DNA of 64,000 nt from Actinomycetes bacterium (GTDB lineage Bacteria > Actinomycetota > Acidimicrobiia > Acidimicrobiales > Aldehydirespiratoraceae), in the NCBI GenBank assembly GCA_024276495.1, contig JAJRXC010000051.1, positions 1 to 64,000 on the forward strand. Direction: 5' to 3'. A program made the translations under genes and the position numbers. Below are positions 719 through 58,445 of this stretch, one piece after another; the first letter of the stretch is position 1, and the number at the start of each line of letters is the position of its first letter. The notes beneath the pieces are model-generated. The model did not search any database. It was not told the DNA's origin and was given only the letters and a program-made list of their open reading frames with translations.

Positions 719-1207
719 TTATTGCATGACGAAGGTGGTGAGCAGGACGCGCACGACCTTCTCGTCGTCGTAGGCGGCGCGGATGAGGGTGGAGAGCTCC
801 TCGCGGACGACCGTCTTGGATCCGGGGGCCCGAAGCGCTTCGAATGACTGGGCCGACAGATAGTCGATGGCCGCGTCGACTGCGATGGGAGCTTCGGTCT
901 CCATCGATTCCACGGAGGTCCCGGCTTCGAGGACGAGGGCGAGTCCGACCCGCAGGTAGCGGTTCTCGCCGGGATCCGTCAGGTTCACGACGAGCTCTTC
1001 CATCGGGAAGATGTCGCCTTCCTCGATCACCCGTTCGGCCTGCTCGTCGATGCCGTCGACGCCGTCGACCGCTTCTTCGGCGGGAGCCGGCGCGAGCACG
1101 AACTTGTAGACCGCGGCGAGGCCGACGAGGCCGACGACGATCATCTTGCCCTTGCTCTTGCCGCCCTCCTCCTCTTCGTCCGATGCCTTCTTCTTTTTCT
1201 TGGCCAT
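719..1207 (-). CDS. fliL: flagellar basal-body protein FliL
   Basis: FliL is a single-pass membrane protein that surrounds the stator and supports motor torque. The 162-residue product has a Lys-rich cytoplasmic start (MAKKKKK), an acidic patch, one membrane helix at about residues 22-40 and a periplasmic domain (about 55-162) with the typical FliL pattern (FPMEELVVNL, then NRYLRV). An AAGGAGACGGC ribosome site precedes the ATG. It is the last gene of the motA-motB-fliL group, 17 bases after motB. In many bacteria fliL precedes fliM; here it sits with the stator genes, consistent with its stator role. Confidence 0.93.
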   Translation of the reverse strand: MAKKKKKASDEEEEGGKSKGKMIVVGLVGLAAVYKFVLAPAPAEEAVDGVDGIDEQAERVIEEGDIFPMEELVVNLTDPGENRYLRVGLALVLEAGTSVESMETEAPIAVDAAIDYLSAQSFEALRAPGSKTVVREELSTLIRAAYDDEKVVRVLLTTFVMQ

Positions 1208-1224
1208 GGGATGCCGTCTCCTTG

Positions 1225-2142
1225 TCAGGTCCCGCCGAAGACGGGGTCCTCGAATCCTGCGATGTCGACTGTGGTGGTCGCGTCGAGCCCGGTCGCCGTG
1301 TCGACGTCTGATGTGTCATCGACGAACGGGGCGTCGCTGATCGTCGCCGTGTCGGGTTCGACGAGGATGACGATCTCGGTGCGCCGGTTGGCTTGGCGGC
1401 CTTCGGCGTCGGCGTTGGAGGCGCGGGGTCGGGTGTCGGCGTAGCCGACCGCGCCGAGCCGGCTGCCGTCGATGCCGTAGCTCTCGTTGAGGGTTCGCAA
1501 CACGGCGGTCGCCCGGGCCGACGACAGCTCCCAGTTGGTGGGCCACACGGTGCCGGTGGTCGGCACGGAATCGGTGTGGCCCTCGACCAGGATCTGGTTG
1601 TCGAGTCCGGACACGGCCGCGGCGACCGCGGACAGGGCCGGCGCGGCCTCGGGTTCGATGTGGGCCGAGCCGGAAGCGAAGAGAAGTCGTTCGTCGAGCG
1701 TGATCACGACCCCTCGAGGGTCGAGGTCGACGTCGAAGTCCGTGATGTCCACCGACGCGGCCCCCAACGCCTGTTGGACGGCATCGCGCAGCTCCTCGAC
1801 TTCGTTGGGGGTGATGACCTGATCGGATGCCAGTTCGTCGAGGAGGGCATCGATCTCGTTCTGCACGTCCGACGGGACGACCGCGAGTTGTCCGGAGTTC
1901 TCGTTGATCCCGAGGCCTTCGTCGAGGAACCCGGATCCTTCGGGAAGGGCGGGGCTGGAGATGGAGAACGCCTGTTCGACGCCGTAGCGGAACTCGGCGA
2001 ACTTCTTCTCGTCGAGCAGGGAGAAGGCGTAGAGCAGGACGAAGAACGCGAGCAGCAGGGTCATCGCGTCGGCGTAGCTGTCGAGCCACGCCTTCGACGG
2101 CCCGTCGTCTTCGACGACCACGGCGGCCTTGGCCTTACGCAC
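1225..2142 (-). CDS. motB: flagellar motor stator protein MotB
   Basis: MotB forms the ion channel with MotA and anchors it to peptidoglycan. GTG start (2140-2142) chosen because it overlaps the motA stop by 8 bases and follows a GAGGAAC ribosome site; 305 residues. The N-terminus holds the single membrane helix with the channel Asp in the YADAMTLLLAFF stretch (about residues 22-33). The C-terminal half is an OmpA-like peptidoglycan-binding domain (EGHTDSVP, then SSARA and NRRTEI). Ion specificity cannot be read from sequence with confidence. Confidence 0.95.
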   Translation of the reverse strand: MRKAKAAVVVEDDGPSKAWLDSYADAMTLLLAFFVLLYAFSLLDEKKFAEFRYGVEQAFSISSPALPEGSGFLDEGLGINENSGQLAVVPSDVQNEIDALLDELASDQVITPNEVEELRDAVQQALGAASVDITDFDVDLDPRGVVITLDERLLFASGSAHIEPEAAPALSAVAAAVSGLDNQILVEGHTDSVPTTGTVWPTNWELSSARATAVLRTLNESYGIDGSRLGAVGYADTRPRASNADAEGRQANRRTEIVILVEPDTATISDAPFVDDTSDVDTATGLDATTTVDIAGFEDPVFGGT

Positions 2143-2923
2143 TCTTTTGTTCCTCGTCGGTCTGTCGCTCGGACGGCGGCAGATAGGCCGAGAGCTTGCC
2201 GGAGAGGGCTCGGGGGTTGGCACCGGATTGGATCGAGATGATGCCTTCGATCAGGAGCTCACGAAAGGCCACCTCGATCGTCGAGGTCCGCTTCAGCTTC
2301 ATCGAGACGGGGGTGTAGATGTAGTTGGCGAGAAAAACACCCCACAGGGTCGTCGAGAACGCCACCGCGAGGGCCGGGCCGAGCGCGCCGGGGTCGCTCA
2401 GGTTCGACAGCATGTCGATCAGGCCGATGACCGTGCCGGCCACACCGAACGCGGGGGCGTATCCGGCTGCGTTGGAGAAGAACGCCGCACCGGCCCGGTG
2501 CCGGGCCGACATCTGGGCGACCTCGAGCTCGAGGGTCTCGCGCAGCTCTTCGGGGTCGGTGCCGTCGACCGCCATCATCAGGCCGGTCTTCAAGAACTCG
2601 TCCTCGACTTCGCCGAGGGAGCTCTCGAGGGTCAACAGACCGTCACGGCGGGCGATGTCGGCGAACTCGACGAGTTGTTCGATCGAGCCGGCGGAGTCGG
2701 GCGGGGCGCCACCGGCAAACGCCTTGATCCCCGCCTTGAGGCCGTTCTTGAGGTCGGGAATGGTGCCACTGGCGGCGGTCGCGCCCATGCTGCCGAAGAA
2801 GACCAGCAGGATCGATCCAGGGTCGCCGAAGAAGATCCCGACCGGGTCCATCCCGGCCATGAACATCGCGCCGAACGTCGTGGCGAGGGCAATGATGATG
2901 CCGGCGATCGTCAGCGGATCCAT
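2135..2923 (-). CDS. motA: flagellar motor stator protein MotA
   Basis: MotA is the multi-pass stator subunit that transmits force to FliG. The 262-residue protein starts MDPLTIAG and shows the usual four membrane segments (two near the N-terminus, two around residues 145-200) and the MotA/TolQ/ExbB core (GTVIGLIDMLSNL at about 160-173). The large cytoplasmic loop lies between helices 2 and 3. Its ATG lies one base after the flbD stop and its end overlaps motB, so flbD-motA-motB are translated as one unit. Confidence 0.96.
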   Translation of the reverse strand: MDPLTIAGIIIALATTFGAMFMAGMDPVGIFFGDPGSILLVFFGSMGATAASGTIPDLKNGLKAGIKAFAGGAPPDSAGSIEQLVEFADIARRDGLLTLESSLGEVEDEFLKTGLMMAVDGTDPEELRETLELEVAQMSARHRAGAAFFSNAAGYAPAFGVAGTVIGLIDMLSNLSDPGALGPALAVAFSTTLWGVFLANYIYTPVSMKLKRTSTIEVAFRELLIEGIISIQSGANPRALSGKLSAYLPPSERQTDEEQKSA

Positions 2924-2924
2924 G

Positions 2925-3176
2925 TCAGGTGTCCTCGTCGCTGGTGGGGTCGTCCACGAGGTGGAGCGCGACGACCGCGGCGGGGTCCTCCGCGGTTGCC
3001 ACGACCCGCGCCCGGAAGTGGACGATTCGGTCGATGACCTCGTCGATGGGTTCGGCGACGAGGTACTTCGTGCCGTCGATGAGGGTCAGGACGGTGTCGG
3101 GGGTGACGTCGACGCGCTCGATCAGGTCGGCGTTCAGCGCGAAGCGCTCGCTGTTCAACCTCGTCAGCTGAATCAT
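2925..3176 (-). CDS. flbD: flagellar FlbD family protein
   Basis: Small (83 residues) FlbD-family protein, usually encoded next to motA in Gram-positive flagellar clusters; its biochemical role is not established. Start set at the ATG 3174-3176, which opens MIQLTRLNSERFALNADLIE, the conserved family beginning, behind GAAGGGAA. An upstream in-frame start exists but adds 22 residues not typical of the family. The pattern DTVLTLIDGTKYLVAEPIDE at about 27-46 is diagnostic. Confidence 0.92.
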   Translation of the reverse strand: MIQLTRLNSERFALNADLIERVDVTPDTVLTLIDGTKYLVAEPIDEVIDRIVHFRARVVATAEDPAAVVALHLVDDPTSDEDT

Positions 3177-44325: not shown

Positions 44326-45852
44326 TCAGTCGGTGACGAATTCCCGTCGCCGGTCCGTCGTCTGGTTCAACGAGCGGACCGTCGCGGCGATTCGTCCGAC
44401 GATCGCCAGCGACAGGGCGATCAAAAGGCCACCGACGACCACTTGCGCCGCCGTCGGACCGTCGGTCTTGGTGACCAGATACAACTCGGTCGATTTCGTC
44501 ACCGATCCGTCGTCGCCGATCGTGACGGGAAGCCAGGCTTCCAGCCGGTCCTCGCCGGCGCGGGCCTCGGTGTACACGAACCAGCGACCCGACTCGTCGA
44601 GGTCCACCCGGCCGACCCAGCCGCCTTCTCCCTCGTCGAGCGAACCGGTGACGACTCGGCCGGCTCGGCGGGCCACGACCCTCTCGGGTTCGATTCCCTC
44701 GGTGCCGGCGTCGAGGGCCACGATCACGTCGACTCGCCCCTCGGTGACCGTGGCGGTCAGGGCGACGCTCGCGACCTCGTCGCCTTGACCCGGATCGTGA
44801 GCGGCGGCCGGACGGGGGATCGAGACCGTGAGGACCACCAACGTCGCCAGTGCGGCCAGCGCCGCGGTCGACCCGATCGGAGCCCGACGAGACGGTGCCG
44901 GATCGAAGACGACGATCACCGCGGCGACCGCGGCCGCGGCGATGGCCGTGCCGACGAGCGCGTCGGGGGTCGACGGAGCGACGCCGCCCGACACGATCTG
45001 GAGATACGGCACGTAGACGATGAAGAGGGCCGCCACGAACGCCACCGCGCGTGCTGAAACGGGCCAACCGCGTCGACGGGCCACGTCGGCGACCACCAGG
45101 GCGGGGACGATGACCGGCACGATCGGCCGGGAGAAGTCCATGACCCACAAGACGACGGCGACCGCGGCGACCGCGGCGGTGTAGGCCAGGCCGGCCCGGG
45201 TCGCCGGCCACGCCGGCCGCGTCGGCGCCACGGCCTGCACCGTGAGCAGGCCCGCCATCAATCCGGTCGCGAGGGCCGGCAGATACCAGAGCGGGGAGAA
45301 CTGGGCGACGTCGGTGTCGTACTCCAGCACCAGGACCTGCCAGCCGCCCAGCACCCCGGCGCCGGCCGCCACCGACAGGACCGATCCGGCCCGCGAGGTC
45401 ATCGCCGCGGCGCCCTGGCCGGCGATCATCGCGATGCCACTGGCCAACGAGATCGTCCCGAGCAACGCGACCATGTGCGGGGGGCTCCACACGACCGCGT
45501 CGCGGCCGAACGCCTCGTGCCACCACGCGTCGACGGGCGCCGATCCGAGTGTGACCGCGGCGCCGATCACCGCCACGCCCACGGGGCCCGAGATCATCGC
45601 CGTCACACCACCCGCCCGGCGCTGCCAGCCCCACCGGATCACGACGCCGACGGCCAGCGCCACTCCCGCGTACAAGGCGACGTGGGGGGCGCTCAAGGTC
45701 TCGTCCCGACCTCGATCGGTGTGCCACGCGTCGTCCCAGTAGACGCCGAAGAGTGCGAGCACCAAGCCGATGAGCGCGGCGGTGGCGCTCGGGGCGGTGA
45801 TCGGCGACGTGGTTCGGGCCGGTGAGCGAGCGGCATCATCTGTGTTGCGCAT
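44326..45852 (-). CDS. large membrane protein with a C-terminal beta domain, respiration-linked by context
   Basis: 508 residues from ATG 45850-45852. About ten hydrophobic helices fill residues 25-340; several conserved-looking acidic and His residues lie at helix ends (DDAWHTD, APVDAWWHEAF, SPPHMVALLG). After AAAHDPGQGDEVA comes a soluble region (about 355-455) with the feel of a FixH/CopC-like beta sandwich, then a last helix. A CATAGT box 6 bases before the ATG suggests a leaderless gene. Not recognised as a named family; a role in oxidase or copper handling is inferred only from the neighbours. Confidence 0.6.
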   Translation of the reverse strand: MRNTDDAARSPARTTSPITAPSATAALIGLVLALFGVYWDDAWHTDRGRDETLSAPHVALYAGVALAVGVVIRWGWQRRAGGVTAMISGPVGVAVIGAAVTLGSAPVDAWWHEAFGRDAVVWSPPHMVALLGTISLASGIAMIAGQGAAAMTSRAGSVLSVAAGAGVLGGWQVLVLEYDTDVAQFSPLWYLPALATGLMAGLLTVQAVAPTRPAWPATRAGLAYTAAVAAVAVVLWVMDFSRPIVPVIVPALVVADVARRRGWPVSARAVAFVAALFIVYVPYLQIVSGGVAPSTPDALVGTAIAAAAVAAVIVVFDPAPSRRAPIGSTAALAALATLVVLTVSIPRPAAAHDPGQGDEVASVALTATVTEGRVDVIVALDAGTEGIEPERVVARRAGRVVTGSLDEGEGGWVGRVDLDESGRWFVYTEARAGEDRLEAWLPVTIGDDGSVTKSTELYLVTKTDGPTAAQVVVGGLLIALSLAIVGRIAATVRSLNQTTDRRREFVTD

Positions 45853-45896
45853 GCGGACACTATGCAGGGTGACCGCCAAGAATGCAACACTAGCGA

Positions 45897-45908
45897 TGCA
45901 CTAGTGCA
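45897..45908. promoter_or_regulatory. 12-bp perfect palindrome TGCACTAGTGCA
   Basis: Perfect dyad 45-55 bases upstream of the large membrane-protein gene, next to a partial second copy (TGCAACACTAG at 45883-45893). Likely an operator; the binding protein is unknown. Confidence 0.4.
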
Positions 45909-45909
45909 C

Positions 45910-46626
45910 CTATTGAGAGGCGGTGGGGGTCCCGATCCGCGGCCGGATCGCGACCGCGGCAGCCAACGCGGCCCCCGCGAGCACCGTCACGACGATCGAG
46001 GTCATGTGTTGACGAGTGAGCCCGTCGCCGACATGGGGCAACCAGACGGACCCGACGGTACGAACGGCGGCGACGGCGACTCCCGCGCCGAGCAGCACCA
46101 GCAGCGGATCGTCGCCCCGGTCCCGGACCCGCCGCGTCACGATCGCCGCCGCGACGACGGCCAGCGCCATGAGCAACCCGACCGGCAACATCGTCGTGCT
46201 GAGCCCGGGCGGCCGCAGACCCAACGACGAGTCCGGCCCGAAGCACCCGTCACGGAAGAGACACGCCGCCTCGTACATGGCGTAGCCGATCATCGCCAGC
46301 GGCGCCAGGTCGACCAGTCGCACCAGTGGTGCCACCCAGTCACGGACGGCCGACCACACCAGCACCCCGACGGCGGCGGCGACACCCGGCCAGAACTCGA
46401 CCCCGCTGCGGATGATCAACATGTCGGAGACACTCCCGATCGAGCTGGGGTCATCGAGGGCCAGGGTGGTCAACCGACCGACCGCGAGACCGGCGAAGGC
46501 CGGGGCGAGGGCGACGTCGAGGAAACCCACGGGTTCGTCATAGGTCGACAACGGCCACCAGTTGGCGAGCAGCGTCGGCACGCCGAATCCGACGATCATG
46601 CTCATCAGGAGTCCGTAGTCGATCAC
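45910..46626 (-). CDS. polytopic membrane protein, faintly Lgt-like
   Basis: 238 residues from GTG 46624-46626, overlapping the TlpA-like stop by 4 bases. Six or seven helices. A middle segment PLAMIGYAMYEAACLFRDGC (about 95-115) and the following Gly-rich turn recall prolipoprotein diacylglyceryl transferases, but the catalytic His-Gly-Gly loop of Lgt is not evident. It is co-translated with the thioredoxin-like gene, so it may take part in disulphide or cytochrome maturation. Name kept general. Confidence 0.55.
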   Translation of the reverse strand: MIDYGLLMSMIVGFGVPTLLANWWPLSTYDEPVGFLDVALAPAFAGLAVGRLTTLALDDPSSIGSVSDMLIIRSGVEFWPGVAAAVGVLVWSAVRDWVAPLVRLVDLAPLAMIGYAMYEAACLFRDGCFGPDSSLGLRPPGLSTTMLPVGLLMALAVVAAAIVTRRVRDRGDDPLLVLLGAGVAVAAVRTVGSVWLPHVGDGLTRQHMTSIVVTVLAGAALAAAVAIRPRIGTPTASQ

Positions 46627-47242: not shown

Positions 47243-48130
47243 TCAGATCGGGGCGCCCCAGAACGCCTCGAGGGCGACCGCCGAGAAGAGCAGCGTCAGG
47301 TATACGATCGAGTCCCGAAAGAAGGCCATCGCCTTCGCTTCGGTGAGCCGAAACGACCCGCGGATGAACCAACCACCGAGCACCGCGGTCGGCACGAGGT
47401 ACACGACACCGACCACGGAACCGAGACCGAGCGCGAGTGAGGCGATGACGGTGAGGACCGTGTAGGCACGAATCTGACGAATCGTGGGCCCGACCCCCGC
47501 CACGACGGGCAGCATCGGCACATCCGCGCTGCGGTAGTCGTCCCGGTAGCGAATCGCCAGCGCCCAGAAATGCGGCGGGGTCCACAGGCACACCACAACG
47601 AAGAGGGCGAGCGCCTCGAACGAGAGGGTGCCGGTCACCGCGGCCGATCCGACGAGCACGGGCACCGCGCCGGCAACGCCACCGATGACGATGTTCTGCG
47701 AGGTCCGCCGTTTGAGCACGAGCGTGTAGACGCCGACGTAGAACAGCAGTGACCCGGTGCACAGCCAGGCCGCCAGTTGGCCGACGAAGATCACGAGCCA
47801 GACATGGCCGACGAGACCGAGAACGATGCCGAAGACGAGCGCGTTGCGCACCGGGACATCGCGGGTCACCAGCGGGCGATCCGACGTCCGGTTCATCACC
47901 TGATCGATGTCGCGGTCACAGACGTTGTTGAGCACGTTCGCCCCACCGGCCGAGAACGACCCGCCCATCACCGTCGCGACCACCAGCCAGGTGGACGGCC
48001 AGCCGCCCTGGGCCAACATCATCGTCGGCACCGTGGTGACGAGCAGCAGCTCGATGATGCGCGGCTTGGTCAGGCGGACATAGGTACCGATGACCGACGG
48101 AGGTCGGGTGACGGGGCGGTTGTCGAGCAT
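47243..48130 (-). CDS. ctaB: protoheme IX farnesyltransferase (heme O synthase)
   Basis: Makes heme O from protoheme for aa3-type oxidases. 295 residues, UbiA prenyltransferase fold with about nine helices. First Asp-rich motif NVLNNVCDRDIDQVMNRT (about 65-82) and the matching DRPL, second motif around RYRDDYRSADVPMLP (about 192-206). A single ORF in the usual place next to oxidase genes. Starts 3 bases after the cupredoxin stop. Confidence 0.95.
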   Translation of the reverse strand: MLDNRPVTRPPSVIGTYVRLTKPRIIELLLVTTVPTMMLAQGGWPSTWLVVATVMGGSFSAGGANVLNNVCDRDIDQVMNRTSDRPLVTRDVPVRNALVFGIVLGLVGHVWLVIFVGQLAAWLCTGSLLFYVGVYTLVLKRRTSQNIVIGGVAGAVPVLVGSAAVTGTLSFEALALFVVVCLWTPPHFWALAIRYRDDYRSADVPMLPVVAGVGPTIRQIRAYTVLTVIASLALGLGSVVGVVYLVPTAVLGGWFIRGSFRLTEAKAMAFFRDSIVYLTLLFSAVALEAFWGAPI

Positions 48131-48133
48131 CGA

Positions 48134-48967
48134 TCAGGCAGTCCGCACTACGAGCGTGGTGCGCATGCCCGCATCCCAGTGGGAACCCCGACCACGGAAG
48201 CAGCCGACGTCCCATTCGCCGACGGCGTCATCGGGGACCGTCACGGTCAAACGGGCGACCTCGCCCGGGCGGCGCTGCACCATGAAGCCGGCGTGGACGT
48301 CCTCGCCGCCATCGCCGCCCATGTCCATGCCGTCCATGTCACCGGCCGACTCGTCGTCGTGGCCGGGATCGGCCGACTCGTCGTCGTGGCCGGCGTCGGG
48401 CATGTCCATGCCGTCCATCTCGCCCATCTCGTCGTCGGCCATCGAATCGTCCGACATGTCCATGCCGTCCATGCCGTCCATCTCGTCGTCGGCCATCTCG
48501 TCGTCGGCCATCGAATCGTCCGACATGTCCATCCCGTCCATGCCGTCCATCTCGCCCATCTCGTCGTCGGCCATCGAATCGTCCGACATGTCCATCCCGT
48601 CCATGTCCATGGCGCCCATGTCCATGTCGCCCATCGCGCCCATGTCCATTCCCGCGTTGGGCGGATCGACGATCGGGGTGACGTCCTCGAAGAAGTCGTG
48701 CTCGAAGCCGTTCGGGTAGCCCTCCCGGGTCTCCTGGAGGTTGCGTCCGATCATGAACTCGTGCTCGTTGTCGCCGGCGTTGACCAAGATGAAGGTGACC
48801 GTCTCGCCCGCCGTCACCTCGATGCGGTCGGTCCCGAAGGTGAACTCGTCCATGTCGATCACGATCTCGCCCGCCGCGTCCGGGGTGAGAACGATCTCGT
48901 CCTCGGCCAAGCCGCAGCCCGCGGCAACGAGACCGAACAACGCCAGGAACGCCAGGATTCTGCGCAT
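48134..48967 (-). CDS. cupredoxin-domain lipoprotein with a Met/Asp repeat insert
   Basis: 277 residues from ATG 48965-48967 (TTGGAG upstream). A lipobox (LVAAGC, Cys 18) follows the signal. The cupredoxin fold is split: strands 1-4 at about 25-100 carry one copper His (NEHEF, 69), and the C-terminal strands at 228-277 carry Cys 256, His 263 and Met 268 (GCFRGRGSHWDAGM), a complete type 1 copper set. Between them (107-217) lies an insert with 29 Met, mostly as MD, GMD and SMADDEM repeats, plus HDDES boxes. Met-rich chains commonly bind Cu(I). Position between ctaE and ctaB suggests copper delivery to, or storage for, the oxidase. Confidence 0.85.
   Translation of the reverse strand: MRRILAFLALFGLVAAGCGLAEDEIVLTPDAAGEIVIDMDEFTFGTDRIEVTAGETVTFILVNAGDNEHEFMIGRNLQETREGYPNGFEHDFFEDVTPIVDPPNAGMDMGAMGDMDMGAMDMDGMDMSDDSMADDEMGEMDGMDGMDMSDDSMADDEMADDEMDGMDGMDMSDDSMADDEMGEMDGMDMPDAGHDDESADPGHDDESAGDMDGMDMGGDGGEDVHAGFMVQRRPGEVARLTVTVPDDAVGEWDVGCFRGRGSHWDAGMRTTLVVRTA
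48317..48649 (-). repeat. Met/Asp-rich coding repeat in the cupredoxin gene
   Basis: About 111 codons with three near-identical units of about 60 bp encoding MDGMDMSDDSMADDEM, plus shorter variants. The protein periodicity and near-perfect DNA copies indicate slippage or unequal exchange. Copy number probably varies between strains. Confidence 0.9.
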
Positions 48968-49026: not shown

Positions 49027-49590
49027 TCAGATGAGATACAACGCCGGATAAAAGAACACCCAGACCACGTCGACGAAGTGCCAGTACTTGACGCCCGCCT
49101 CCACCGGCCACGCGTTGTCGGCGTAGCGGCCTCGTCTCGCATTGTTCCACAGCAGGCCGAGGAATATGAGGCCGGTCAACACGTGGAAGGCGTGGATTCC
49201 GGTCATCGTGAAGAAGACCGTTCCGAACTCCGTGCTCGGCGGGAACGCGTCGAACGCCTCGATCCACTCGTAGGCCACGCCGGCGACGAACACGAACCCG
49301 AGCAGAAGGGTCAGCGACAGATACTTGACCATTTCCGCCTGGTCTCCGTGGTGGGCGGCATGCTCGGCCCGGAACGCCGTGTAGCTCGATGCGAGCAGGA
49401 TGGCGGTGATGACCAGGCCGATGGTCTGGGAGACCTCTTCGTGGACTTCGGTACCGAGCAGGCTGAACCGGGTGGTGAGGACCCCGGCGAAGAGCATCGT
49501 CTCGGAGAGGAAGAACAGCCACAGCCCGATCCGGTTGATCTTCAGACGCGGGGTGGCGTGCTCCATGGGGAGGACTTCGGTGGCGGCCAT
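49027..49590 (-). CDS. ctaE: cytochrome c oxidase subunit III
   Basis: 187 residues, five predicted helices, as in the short actinobacterial form of subunit III. Typical segments: GLWLFFLSETMLFAGVLTTR (about 22-41), GVAYEWIEAFD and the helix pair FHVLTGLIFLGLLW and YWHFVDVVWVFFYPALYLI at the end. It starts one base into the stop of the subunit IV gene. Completes a ctaC-ctaD-subunit IV-ctaE operon on the minus strand. Confidence 0.95.
   Translation of the reverse strand: MAATEVLPMEHATPRLKINRIGLWLFFLSETMLFAGVLTTRFSLLGTEVHEEVSQTIGLVITAILLASSYTAFRAEHAAHHGDQAEMVKYLSLTLLLGFVFVAGVAYEWIEAFDAFPPSTEFGTVFFTMTGIHAFHVLTGLIFLGLLWNNARRGRYADNAWPVEAGVKYWHFVDVVWVFFYPALYLI

Positions 49591-49789: not shown

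Positions 49790-49793
<4 letters not shown>
49590..49793 (-). CDS. small oxidase subunit IV-like protein
   Basis: 67 residues from GTG 49791-49793, overlapping the ctaD stop by 4 bases (GTGA). Two helices (about 12-30 and 36-58); the ending KGAIILVAFMHIKNIFG is typical of prokaryotic cytochrome oxidase subunit IV. The location between subunits I and III fits. Easily missed by automated annotation because of its size and start. Confidence 0.8.
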
Positions 49794-51625
<1,832 letters not shown>

Positions 51626-51650: not shown

Positions 51651-52397
51651 TCAGCCCCCGGCGGCCGCGAGCCACGCGTCGAACTCCGCCTGCTCGACGA
51701 CGGTCACACCGGTGAACATGCGGGCGTGGCCGACACCGCAGAGCTCCGCGCACTGCACCCGCATCTCATCTTGGTTGTCGAAGCTTCCGAGCACCTCGGC
51801 GGTCACCATGGTCGTGGTGATCTGGCCGGGTACGGCATCTTTTTTGATCCGGAAAGCGGGGATCCAAAAGGAGTGGATCACGTCGGTCGAGCTGATCCGG
51901 AAGAGGATTCGCCGGTCGATGGGCAGCATCAGGGTGCCCTGGGTCTCGACCCCCGATTCGGCATAGGTGTAGGCCCAATTCCACCGTTCGGCCCGCACAT
52001 CGATGATCAGGTCGGGTTCGGGTTCGGCCCGCAGCTCGTCGAGCCCCGTGAAGCCGGGGGTGATGACGATGAGCACCGACAGCGCGGTGGTGATGACCAC
52101 CCAGGTGCCGATGAACAACCGGTTGGTGCGAATGGGGGCGCCGTCGGCCCCGGTGCCGCGGTCGCGGTCACGAACGAGCGTGTAGCCGCCGACGACGAGC
52201 ACGAAGGTGAACACCGGCGCGGCGAACAGCAAGAGCAGATCGAACGCGTCGTCGGTGATCTCGGCTTCTCGCGACGCGGCGAACGGATGCCATTGGATCG
52301 CGGCGACCGCGATCACGGCCAACACCGTGGCGACGAGCCAGATCAGCCCGACGACGAGCAGGCGCTTTGATGAGTTGTTGCGGTCCTCTTCCCCCAT
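51651..52397 (-). CDS. ctaC: cytochrome c oxidase subunit II
   Basis: 248 residues from ATG 52395-52397 (a TTG four codons upstream is possible). Two helices (about 15-40 and 53-75) and a further hydrophobic stretch (about 95-115), then the CuA cupredoxin domain: AERWNWAYTY, DVIHSFWIPAF with a CuA His, and CAELCGVGHARM (both Cys, His and Met). It has no cytochrome c domain. The upstream gap contains a BlaI-type dyad right at the presumed promoter. Confidence 0.95.
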   Translation of the reverse strand: MGEEDRNNSSKRLLVVGLIWLVATVLAVIAVAAIQWHPFAASREAEITDDAFDLLLLFAAPVFTFVLVVGGYTLVRDRDRGTGADGAPIRTNRLFIGTWVVITTALSVLIVITPGFTGLDELRAEPEPDLIIDVRAERWNWAYTYAESGVETQGTLMLPIDRRILFRISSTDVIHSFWIPAFRIKKDAVPGQITTTMVTAEVLGSFDNQDEMRVQCAELCGVGHARMFTGVTVVEQAEFDAWLAAAGG

Positions 52398-52410
52398 GAC
52401 GTCGGGCAAG

Positions 52411-52426
52411 CTACTACATGTTGTAG
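52411..52426. promoter_or_regulatory. BlaI/CopY-type operator between ctaC and the BlaR-like gene
   Basis: CTACTACATGTTGTAG: arms CTAC and GTAG with a central ACATGT. One mismatched pair. It resembles known BlaI/MecI/CopY sites (TACAnnTGTA core). It lies 14 bases from the ctaC start on one side and about 135 bases from the BlaR-like start on the other; a BlaI homologue is encoded at 53453. Confidence 0.6.
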
Positions 52427-52560
52427 GAGATGTCCATCATCGGGTTTCCCGGTATCCCCGACATTCGCCGTGTCCGGGGGCCGGAACTTTTACTTCCTGT
52501 CATCGGCGCCGTGCGGTAGCCTGGACGACACATCGCGGGGAAGACACGACAGGGGGCGGT

Positions 52561-53406
52561 GTGACCGGGTTCGAGATACTCATGTCCACGTCCGCGCTGC
52601 TCGCCGTCCCGGTGATCGCCAGCCACTGGCGAATCCAGCCCCGCCCGGTCGCGTTGGCCGCGATCTGGTCCGTCGCGTTGACGGCATGCATCGTGTTGAC
52701 GACCCTGTCGATGTGTGCGGCGGCCCTGATCGGCACCTTCGGTGCGGCCGGCCGGGAGTTCTCGCCCCGCCATCTCATCCCGGCGGTGCCGTTCACCGGG
52801 TGGATCAGTCTGGCCATCATCACCGTGGCCGTCGTCAGCGGCATCCGGGCGATCCATGGAACGAGCCGCCGACGGCGGCAACTCGTCGATCGACTCCGGT
52901 ATGCCGACGTCACCCACATCGACGAGGTCGCGGTCGTCACGTTGCCGACGGAGGACTTCGTCGCCGTCGCCGTGCCCGGCCCCGATGGCTGCGTGCTGAT
53001 GTCCGAGGGGGCGATCGAGGAGCTGAGCCCACCGGAGCTGCGCGCCGTCGTGCACCACGAGGACGCGCACCGCCGCCTCGGACACCACCGCCATCTGCTG
53101 CTCGCCCGGGCCGCCGATCAGTCGTTGTGGTTCGTGCCGGGCATGCGCCACGCGACCCGGACCCTGCGGGAGTCGCTGGAGATCGCAGCCGACGCCGACG
53201 CCGGCGAAACCGTCGACAACCGGTCGGTGGCCGCCGCGCTGCGACGATGCGCCCCCCGCACCGACCGGATGGCCGCCCGCCGGCTGCGACGGATCAACAC
53301 CGACACCGCCGCGAAGTTCGCCCTCGGGGGCCTGTCACTCGGACTGATGGCGGTGAGCGCCGCCGCGGTGTTCTTCGAGTTGAGTTGGCTCGGGGTCATG
53401 GCCTGA
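52561..53406 (+). CDS. M56 (BlaR1-type) membrane metallopeptidase
   Basis: 281 residues from GTG 52561 behind AGGGGG. Three N-terminal helices (about 4-20, 30-60 and 75-95), a cytoplasmic zinc-protease domain with the HExxH motif HEDAH (in VVHHEDAHRRLGH, about 162-174), and a C-terminal helix (about 255-278). No sensor (penicillin-binding) domain is attached. Such proteins pair with BlaI repressors, cleaving them on a signal. Followed by the BlaI-like gene after 46 bases. Confidence 0.88.
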   Translation: MTGFEILMSTSALLAVPVIASHWRIQPRPVALAAIWSVALTACIVLTTLSMCAAALIGTFGAAGREFSPRHLIPAVPFTGWISLAIITVAVVSGIRAIHGTSRRRRQLVDRLRYADVTHIDEVAVVTLPTEDFVAVAVPGPDGCVLMSEGAIEELSPPELRAVVHHEDAHRRLGHHRHLLLARAADQSLWFVPGMRHATRTLRESLEIAADADAGETVDNRSVAAALRRCAPRTDRMAARRLRRINTDTAAKFALGGLSLGLMAVSAAAVFFELSWLGVMA

Positions 53407-53452: not shown

Positions 53453-53806
53453 ATGACGAGACGACAGCGTGGAGAGCTCGAACGCGCCGTGCTGGAGGTG
53501 CTGTGGGACCACGGCGGGTGGCTGACCCCCGCCGAGGTCCGCGATCTCCTCGAGGCCGACCTGGCCTACACCACCGTGGTCACCGTGCTCCGGCGACTGT
53601 TCGACAAGAAGCTCATCGCTCGCGAGGTCGACGGACGGGCCCACGCCTACCGACCACACAGCACCCGCGACGAGTACGCCGCCGAGGCCATGGCCCAGGT
53701 CCTCGCCGACGCCCGCGATCCGGTCACCGCGCTCAACCACTTCGTCGACACGCTCGGAGACGACGACCGGCGACAGTTGACCCGCCTGCTCCGTCGCCGG
53801 TCGTGA
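53453..53806 (+). CDS. BlaI/MecI/CopY family repressor
   Basis: 117 residues, winged helix: LERAVLEVLWDHGGWLTPAE (about 8-27), TTVVTVLRRLFDKKLIAREV (recognition helix and wing) and the C-terminal dimer helices. Partner of the M56 protease upstream. Its probable operator lies in the ctaC/M56 gap (52411-52426), which would make it a regulator of the oxidase as well as of itself. In mycobacteria a related BlaI is known to control both beta-lactamase and respiratory (ATP synthase) genes; no beta-lactamase is present here. Confidence 0.92.
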   Translation: MTRRQRGELERAVLEVLWDHGGWLTPAEVRDLLEADLAYTTVVTVLRRLFDKKLIAREVDGRAHAYRPHSTRDEYAAEAMAQVLADARDPVTALNHFVDTLGDDDRRQLTRLLRRRS

Positions 53807-53883: not shown

Positions 53884-54753
53884 ATGATCAGCGCGCCCAT
53901 CGCCTTGGCGTTCACGGCCGGAATGGTCGCCGCGTTCAACCCCTGCGGCTTCTCGCTCCTGCCGGCCTACATCGGCGCGTTCGTCGCCGGGGACGAGGTC
54001 TCCGAGCGCACGGACCGGAGGATTCTCCGCGCCGTCGGGGTCGCCGGCGCGGTGTCGGTCGGGTTCATCATCGTGTTCGCCACCGCCGGCCTCGCGATCG
54101 ACAGCCTGACCGGCGAGGCCCGACGCCAGCTGCCGTGGATCACCATCGCGATCGGTGCGCTCCTCGCCGTCGCCGGCGTCGCGACGATCGCCGGCTGGAA
54201 GCCGACCATCGCGATTCGTGGCCCCCGACTGTCGACCGGGTCCAACCGTCCCCGGGTGATGGTCGGCTACGGCGCCACCTACGCCATCGCCTCGCTGTCG
54301 TGCACGATCGGTCCGTTCCTCGCGGTCACCGGCACCGCGTTGTCGCAGTCACCGGTCGAGGGACTGGCGACCTATGTCGCCTACGCGCTCGGCATGGGTC
54401 TCATCATCTTGATCCTCAGCGTGGCGTCGGCCGTCGCGCACAGCACCGTCGCCAACCACATGCGGCGGCTGTCGCGGGTGGCCCCGAGGGTGGGGGGCGT
54501 GCTGATGGTTCTCGCCGGCGGCTACGCGATCTGGTACGGCCGCTGGGAACTGGCCGTCTACAACGGCGACCTCGGAACCGATCCCCTGATCGACACGATG
54601 GAGGATGTGCGGCTCTGGCTCGTGGCCTTCATCGAGAACGTCGGCGCCGGGCGGCTCGTCGCGGTCGTCGTCGTCGGGATCGGTGCCGCTGTCGCGACCG
54701 CGCGTGCGGCTCGGACCGGCCCCGAACGGGTCGACGCGACCAACGACGCCTGA
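53884..54753 (+). CDS. ccdA: CcdA/DsbD-type thiol-disulphide membrane protein
   Basis: 289 residues, six or seven helices, with the two conserved Cys in NPCGFSLLPAY (about 20-30) and LSCTIGPF (about 138-146). CcdA carries electrons across the membrane to periplasmic thioredoxins such as the TlpA-like protein at 46623, supporting cytochrome c and CuA maturation. Follows the blaI-like gene by about 77 bases. A hydrophilic tail ends the protein. Confidence 0.93.
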   Translation: MISAPIALAFTAGMVAAFNPCGFSLLPAYIGAFVAGDEVSERTDRRILRAVGVAGAVSVGFIIVFATAGLAIDSLTGEARRQLPWITIAIGALLAVAGVATIAGWKPTIAIRGPRLSTGSNRPRVMVGYGATYAIASLSCTIGPFLAVTGTALSQSPVEGLATYVAYALGMGLIILILSVASAVAHSTVANHMRRLSRVAPRVGGVLMVLAGGYAIWYGRWELAVYNGDLGTDPLIDTMEDVRLWLVAFIENVGAGRLVAVVVVGIGAAVATARAARTGPERVDATNDA

Positions 54754-58148: not shown

Positions 58149-58445
58149 GTGCTGCGGACCGCTATGGCTGGATACTCATACTCGAAAGACGACTACTCGG
58201 CGCGACTGCGACGAATCGAAGGACAGGTCCGCGGCCTGCAGCGCATGATCGACGAGGACACGTACTGCATCGACGTCCTCACCCAGATCAGTTCGGTCAC
58301 CAAGGCGCTGCAGAGCGTCGGCATGGGGCTCGTCGACGAACACCTCCGCCACTGTGTCAAAGAGGCAGCCGTCGAGAGCGACGACGCCGGCAACGCGATG
58401 ATCGACGAGGCCACCGCGGCCATCGCCCGACTCCTGCGCTCCTGA
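58149..58445 (+). CDS. csoR: copper-sensing repressor CsoR
   Basis: 98 residues from GTG 58149 (AAAGGG upstream; an ATG at 58164 is possible). All-helical DUF156/CsoR fold: RLRRIEGQVRGLQRMIDED, then Cys in TYCIDVLTQ (40) and HLRHCVKEA (His 65, Cys 69), the Cys-His-Cys triad that binds Cu(I). DNA release on copper binding is established for the family. Its operator lies immediately upstream. Confidence 0.95.
   Translation: MLRTAMAGYSYSKDDYSARLRRIEGQVRGLQRMIDEDTYCIDVLTQISSVTKALQSVGMGLVDEHLRHCVKEAAVESDDAGNAMIDEATAAIARLLRS

Follow-up and report, generated by a model that had tools for sequence, protein, structure and literature searches.

The window, by which we mean the whole 64,000-nucleotide stretch of Acidimicrobiia DNA that was analyzed, carries a cytochrome c oxidase cluster in which cox2, cox1, cox3, a cupredoxin gene, and ctaB lie in this order on one strand, followed by a gene for a TlpA-like thioredoxin. 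The earlier note had placed the cupredoxin gene between ctaE and ctaB, and this position holds, with cox2, cox1, and cox3 upstream and ctaB immediately downstream. The genes and the parts of the cupredoxin gene are as follows:

51651..52397, minus strand: cox2/ctaC, with the CuA motif CAELCGVGHARM and no fused cytochrome c domain seen (domain and structure searches)
49790..51625, minus strand: cox1/ctaD, with the motif YSHPAVY and 2yev as best solved relative (domain and structure searches)
49027..49590, minus strand: cox3/ctaE of the second oxidase type (domain and similarity searches)
48134..48967, minus strand: gene for a predicted AcoP-like cupredoxin lipoprotein, 277 aa from ATG (ORF, profile search, structure model)
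48914..48967, minus strand: predicted signal peptide up to the conserved Cys18, the putative lipidation Cys, with a relaxed lipobox that has Ala at -3 (alignment)
48650..48913, minus strand: N-terminal half of the cupredoxin fold, residues 19-106, with His69 (48761-48763) and the AcoP-like stretch GYPNGFEHDFFE (translation, alignment, profile, model)
48317..48649, minus strand: Met/Asp repeat insert, residues 107-217, predicted disordered (translation, repeat analysis, structure model)
48587-48634, inside the insert DNA: 15-bp tandem unit, 3.2 copies (DNA repeat analysis)
48404..48605, minus strand: 63-bp tandem repeat, 3.1 copies, 91% match (DNA repeat analysis)
48343-48399, inside the insert DNA: 27-bp tandem unit, 2.1 copies (DNA repeat analysis)
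48137..48316, minus strand: C-terminal half of the fold, residues 218-277, with Cys256 (48200-48202), His263 (48179-48181), and Met268 (48164-48166) (translation, alignment, profile)
47243..48130, minus strand: ctaB, heme o synthase, starting 3 bp past the cupredoxin stop (ORF and domain searches)

We take 2yev to be the Thermus caa3 oxidase and read the YSHPAVY motif of cox1 as that of a type A2 oxidase. Apart from an antisense frame inside the repeat array, the window ORFs of at least 80 aa contain no CxxCH heme motif, and thus the electron donor would be either encoded elsewhere or the cupredoxin itself. Divergent beside the oxidase operon are genes for a BlaR1/M48-like membrane peptidase (52396-53406, plus strand) and a BlaI-type repressor (53453-53806, plus strand). 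L054, L055, and L056 also have this pair at the oxidase cluster, and L027, L042, and L057 have it near the cupredoxin, a recurrence that suggests that it may regulate the second oxidase. The BlaI-type repressor has no Cys, unlike the copper-sensing repressor CopY. A CsoR-family metal-sensitive repressor (58164-58445, plus strand; Pfam PF02583), with Cys, His, and Cys residues similar to the copper ligands of CsoR, is encoded about 9 kb from the cupredoxin. The surroundings also include a CcdA/DsbD-like membrane protein (53884-54753, plus strand) and two proteins without a Pfam match (44326-46605, minus strand), all of which are again present around this oxidase cluster in L055, and some of them in L057.

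The window protein has all four copper-ligand positions, His69, Cys256, His263, and Met268, the last three of which form a Cys-x6-His-x4-Met (Cx6H) loop. This spacing, which the earlier note does not mention, is rare, the usual Cys-His spacing being shorter; 15 relatives share both the loop and the upstream His. The ligands are invariant in 18 of 18 aligned proteins, the window protein included, 16 of which had been selected for Cx6H. The proposal that a type 1 copper site is split by a Met/Asp insert is therefore borne out in the form of a type-1-like ligand set on either side of the insert, and by analogy the His-Cys-His-Met site is probably green (type 1.5). Cys18 is likewise invariant in all 18 aligned proteins but has Ala at -3, and the protein is putatively lipidated at this position.

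Among proteins of solved structure, AcoP is the best relative in a single-sequence search (E 5e-4), and with a profile built from the 18 proteins it is the best match at E 1.8e-16, the next family reaching 1e-6. It also ranks first when the model of the window protein is searched with Foldseek, and structural alignment with it gives Z 18.0 and 1.8 A over about 120 residues at 27-29% identity (next entry, Z 14.4). The window protein matches Pfam Cupredoxin_1 and Copper-bind only below their cut-offs, and an ordinary plastocyanin or azurin was rejected because these matches are sub-threshold and AcoP is clearly nearer by profile and structure. The entries 4hcf (Cupredoxin_1) and CueO in the structural alignment share the fold only, and the title of one such entry names the CueO Met-rich domain. 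CueO-type multicopper oxidases carry a Met-rich insert near the type 1 copper site, but they have three domains and a trinuclear site, whereas the window protein has one domain. On the evidence of its sequence and predicted structure, we regard the window protein as an AcoP-like cupredoxin.

AcoP is a green cupredoxin that co-purifies with the Acidithiobacillus cytochrome c oxidase; its ligands are H85 and C159-x6-H166-x4-M171, and its description highlights an extra region-2 and the unusual Cys-His spacing (PMC4059628). It keeps the oxidase active, has a cytochrome c as an interaction partner, and may either give electrons a second way in or shield the copper center (PMC4059628, PMC5982212). 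In AcoP groups I and II the gene lies within a cytochrome c oxidase cluster, and homologues occur in the oxidase clusters of acidophiles, with more distant ones in halophiles (PMC4059628). AcoP of Acidithiobacillus ferrooxidans (PDB 7z3b/7z3f/7z3g/7z3i) and the window protein share the cupredoxin fold with its His...Cys-x6-His-x4-Met ligands, an extra inter-ligand region with a G(F/Y)P...(N/D)FF(D/E) stretch, and a gene in a cytochrome c oxidase cluster. They differ in host, which for AcoP is an acidophilic iron oxidizer, and at the N terminus, where AcoP has a transmembrane helix and the window protein has a signal peptide with the conserved Cys18. That helix is stated for group I only, and groups II and III have other N termini (PMC4059628); it is thus not family-defining. 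In the profile alignment, the insert is located after the G(F/Y)P...FF stretch common to both proteins and falls between AcoP chain residues 112 and 120, that is, between the AcoP His and Cys ligands, in a stretch where AcoP has no Met. From this alignment we take the place of the insert to be that of AcoP extra region-2, which is delimited in a figure of PMC4059628.

The insert itself is exactly as first described, with 29 Met in 111 residues. Positions 48317-48649 translate to residues 107-217, which comprise 29 Met, 37 Asp, 8 Glu, and 2 His but no Cys, Lys, or Arg, and the repeat unit is MDGMDMSDDSMADDEMGE. Against the Met background of 2.2% in the 17 other ORFs of the window (153 of 6917 residues), 29 or more Met in 111 residues has a binomial p of 7e-23, a value that speaks to composition only, the duplicated units being non-independent draws. 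When measured in family-alignment columns, the window insert spans 120 residues, 48 of them Asp or Glu. AlphaFold models the core with confidence, and over residues 111-220 the block-mean pLDDT is 46-55; the array is accordingly predicted to be disordered. An assembly artefact is an unlikely source of the array because G005, the single-contig genome of a different species, has its own 115-residue array, and because inserts of at least 50 residues are found in nine further genomes.

The expectation that cupredoxin folds rarely carry such an insert is not supported in that form. The extra region of AcoP is likewise inter-ligand (PMC4059628), CopI contains a segment of its own (PMC13308877), and His/Asp- or Met-rich inter-ligand stretches are present in many other class-level cupredoxins that we read. 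A separate case is L120 (2547-3746, plus strand; G182), in which two short-loop cupredoxin motifs flank a long His/Asp/Ala/Glu repeat (DDHATEDHADAAE...) that looks like another metal-binding-like array in the class.

Relatives were sought in several sets of genomes. The window genome and 99 others gave matches in 15 of 100; 51 genomes of the family gave matches in 4, the window genome included; and a named genome collection gave 13 loci. Among 395 genomes of the class, 60 had matches, the majority of those read being short-loop cupredoxins, and for the weaker class-level matches 30 loci and 20 fetched stretches were read. With each genome counted once, 16 complete Cx6H proteins were obtained, the window protein included. 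In all 16 cases the gene comes immediately after cox3, in the same orientation, and this also holds for both truncated family members (2/2). If every copy with a readable Cx6H motif is counted, the figure is 16 of 18, the two without a recognized oxidase gene being L061 (6001-6081, a 27-residue match) and the decayed-looking L108 (1918-2559, plus strand). The L061 fragment runs antisense to a BlaI/M56-like frame. Among the 36 short-loop (Cx4H) rows of the tree, one has cox3 in its flank (L080) and one lies beside ctaB (L019), although many of these flanks extend only 1.5 kb. The L080 protein (2583-3053, plus strand; G015) is a Cx4H cupredoxin encoded about 0.5 kb after the 49% cox3 of an intermediate second oxidase. 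The L019 protein (1045-1818, plus strand; G067) is a second cupredoxin of its genome, Cx4H and with a Glu/Asp/His-rich insert, whose gene is convergent with ctaB of the oxidase cluster. No genes like the window oxidase genes were found in 20 further stretches, 19 of which contain a cupredoxin. Viral origin or spread was rejected, as none of six pattern stretches in viral contigs encodes a relative, and no plasmid relative of the full protein was found at E 1e-3.

The tree was built without L054, L037, and L012, which have no C..H....M motif (L054 and L037 are incomplete), and without the short L021, L023, L061, and L020. The 16 Cx6H rows cluster together (97/87). AcoP has a long branch and falls with three Chloroflexota proteins and L019 in a group (84/79) whose branch is not firm. 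The tree puts this AcoP group beside the Cx6H group, the two being joined at 93/97 to the exclusion of two CopI-like proteins, and a joint Cx6H and AcoP clade is not rejected (p-AU 0.22). Within the tree set, the highest identity of AcoP is 34%, to a short-loop protein. The Thermoflexus (Chloroflexota) cupredoxins L058 and L059 also lie beside the Cx6H group and belong to the same fold family, with HEFMVGR and GF..DFF stretches; they differ from the window protein in that their loop is Cx4H, their insert columns hold 10 residues, none of them Met, and no gene like the window oxidase genes was found within 6 kb.

All 16 Cx6H proteins carry inserts with 18-30% Met, no Cys, no Lys or Arg, and 0-3 His, at lengths of 22-120 residues in alignment columns. 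The units themselves differ: DMSDM/DMSDT in L002, GDGDAMDMTDEEM in L004, MQDGQ in L035 and L038, and GGDMGDGHGEDAG in L032. Within one genus, L035 and L038 have 10 versus 8 MQDGQ-type units and are identical at 242 of 252 aligned residues, and the window protein and L003 combine 86% core identity with inserts of 120 versus 70 residues. The copy-number turnover that the near-identical DNA units had suggested is thus seen between species, over a range of 22 to 120 residues and with L035 and L038 two units apart. Short inserts of 22-27 residues with 4-8 Met occur in L024, L025, L026, L027, and L030; they are found in two of the three Cx6H tree subgroups and arrays of at least 50 residues in two, one subgroup having both. 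Composition is thus conserved, but the units change in sequence and in number. Selection for a Met-rich and acidic composition would produce such a pattern, and an ancestral short Met-rich seed also contributes to it.

The link to an oxidase, which the earlier note had drawn from gene order, is supported beyond the window, by the position of Cx6H copies and truncated members behind cox3 and by co-occurrence in 23 genomes searched with the window cox3, a set picked among relatives whose members do not count as independent. Of the 23, all but G014 (22 genomes) have a distant cox3 (31-40% identity). A second cox3 that resembles that of the window (68-82% identity) is present in G005, G013, G026, and G067 besides the window genome (G000). 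The cupredoxin gene and the window-type second cox3 are both present in 5 of the 23 genomes and both absent from the other 18; G015, with its 49% cox3, has no Cx6H protein. A shared operon, by itself, is no proof of shared function.

We favor, with moderate confidence, a model in which the window protein is an oxidase-docked, AcoP-like cupredoxin with an electron-transfer or protective role and a disordered arm that buffers Cu(I) beside the second oxidase. The lipid-anchored cupredoxin would be a partner dedicated to the second cytochrome c oxidase, which the same gene cluster encodes, and its rigid core would dock on the oxidase and either pass electrons to the CuA subunit or protect it, as proposed for AcoP. 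The arm would be the 111-residue Met/Asp stretch, which takes the place of the AcoP extra region between the corresponding ligands. It probably grips copper: its thioethers and carboxylates would most likely offer weak, reversible binding to several Cu(I) ions and so form a local copper buffer beside the oxidase. Points against the model are the 2 His and the lack of Cys in the insert, with which Cu(I) affinity may be weak, the placement of AcoP outside the Cx6H group, the relaxed lipobox, and the Cx6H fragments L061 and L108 away from cox3. Electron transfer and copper handling may in this way be combined in one protein. Reports of metal binding, redox behavior, or interactions for these proteins were not found in the open-licence literature.

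Several other roles were weighed against this one. CopI, a green type-1.5 cupredoxin, contains an internal His/Met-rich copper-binding segment (PMC13308877). The isolated peptide takes up Cu(II), and a preference for Cu(I) is expected; in the model proposed for CopI the segment captures Cu(I) and the cupredoxin center oxidizes it to Cu(II) (PMC13308877). The window protein could serve copper tolerance in the same manner, its arm capturing periplasmic Cu(I) and the oxidase operon being a mere convenient home, but we consider this unlikely. Like CopI of Rubrivivax gelatinosus and others, it is a single-domain cupredoxin with Met residues between its His ligand and its Cys-His-Met loop, albeit with only 2 His in the 111-residue insert; a gene for a CsoR-family repressor is found about 9 kb off, and the CopI model NF051440 matches 17 of the 18 aligned proteins. 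The scores are far under the cut-offs, however: the best of ten relatives scored singly reached 71 of 280 bits, the window protein gave no match to NF051440 at E 0.01, and it scored 16 bits against the CopI model NF047895, for which the cut-off is 200 bits. CopI also differs in its N-terminal His-rich site, its short conserved His/Met segment, and its copper tolerance context; no His precedes His69 in the translated window protein, which thus lacks a CopI-type N-terminal site. Two CopI-like plasmid proteins are Cx4H, have a copper oxidase and TolC as neighbors, and branch off outside the AcoP/Cx6H group, and a tolerance role would leave the cox3 linkage unexplained. The suggestion of the earlier note, a copper reservoir or delivery factor for the oxidase, can be taken to mean a store or metallochaperone that supplies copper to CuA or CuB of the second oxidase and replaces Sco/PCuAC; in this form it appears to us just as doubtful. 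It fits the location of the gene between cox3 and ctaB and the TlpA-like thioredoxin gene after ctaB, and profile searches for SCO1/SenC, Cox11, and PCuAC found none of them in the five genomes with a window-type cluster (G000, G005, G013, G026, G067). Over 19 genomes, these searches matched SCO1/SenC in 7 (6 above the cut-off), Cox11 in 0, and PCuAC in 6, and in 14 control genomes they matched in 6, 1, and 3, respectively. Yet Sco and PCuAC are also missing from four of five family members that do not have the gene (G002, G004, G009, G021; G020 has both), and five of nine distant Cx6H bearers (G154, G224, G105, G186, G169) keep both above the cut-off, the other four lacking both above the cut-off (G380 has a Sco match below it). 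Replacement of Sco/PCuAC as a specific claim was rejected on this basis. Because Sco/PCuAC loss does not track the gene, a delivery factor gains no specific support, and the pattern of Sco, Cox11, and PCuAC argues neither for nor against delivery. A type 1 site holds its copper tightly within a rigid framework, which fits electron transfer better than delivery. Copper delivery by the cupredoxin is nonetheless possible.

The arm might also be no metal site at all, acting instead as a disordered acidic linker for the docking of basic partners or as a sacrificial Met antioxidant near an oxygen enzyme. Its strong acidity (48 Asp and Glu in 120 aligned residues), the absence of Lys and Arg in 16 of 16 inserts, the predicted disorder, and the freedom of the unit sequence to change are all consistent with such a role. 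A docking linker needs no 18-30% Met, however, and Met is kept in all 16 inserts despite changing units, with 4-8 Met even in the forms of 22-27 residues, so that we rate this role slightly below the two preceding ones. Least probable in our estimation is a respiratory entry for cuprous ions, in which the arm would gather Cu(I), the green site would oxidize it, and the electrons would pass to CuA of the adjoining oxidase. If it were true, copper detoxification and respiration would be one reaction, and repeat length would tune copper capacity between species.

An oxidase partner and a green cupredoxin with a Met-rich segment are each known separately, from AcoP and from CopI, respectively. Their combination, the Met/Asp repeat arm, and the occurrence in Acidimicrobiia were not found in the open-licence literature. 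An oxidase-docked cupredoxin with a copper-buffering arm, the role that we favor, would extend the AcoP kind of oxidase partner to Acidimicrobiia, whereas PMC4059628 reports it mainly from acidophiles, with distant homologues in halophiles. It would also add to that partner a changing Met/acid repeat arm, of which the composition is kept but the sequence and length are not. Our findings make two questions testable: the function of AcoP for its oxidase, and the ability of a disordered Met array, carried by an electron-transfer protein, to buffer copper locally for a respiratory enzyme. The natural length variants, from 22 to 120 residues, provide a ready-made series.
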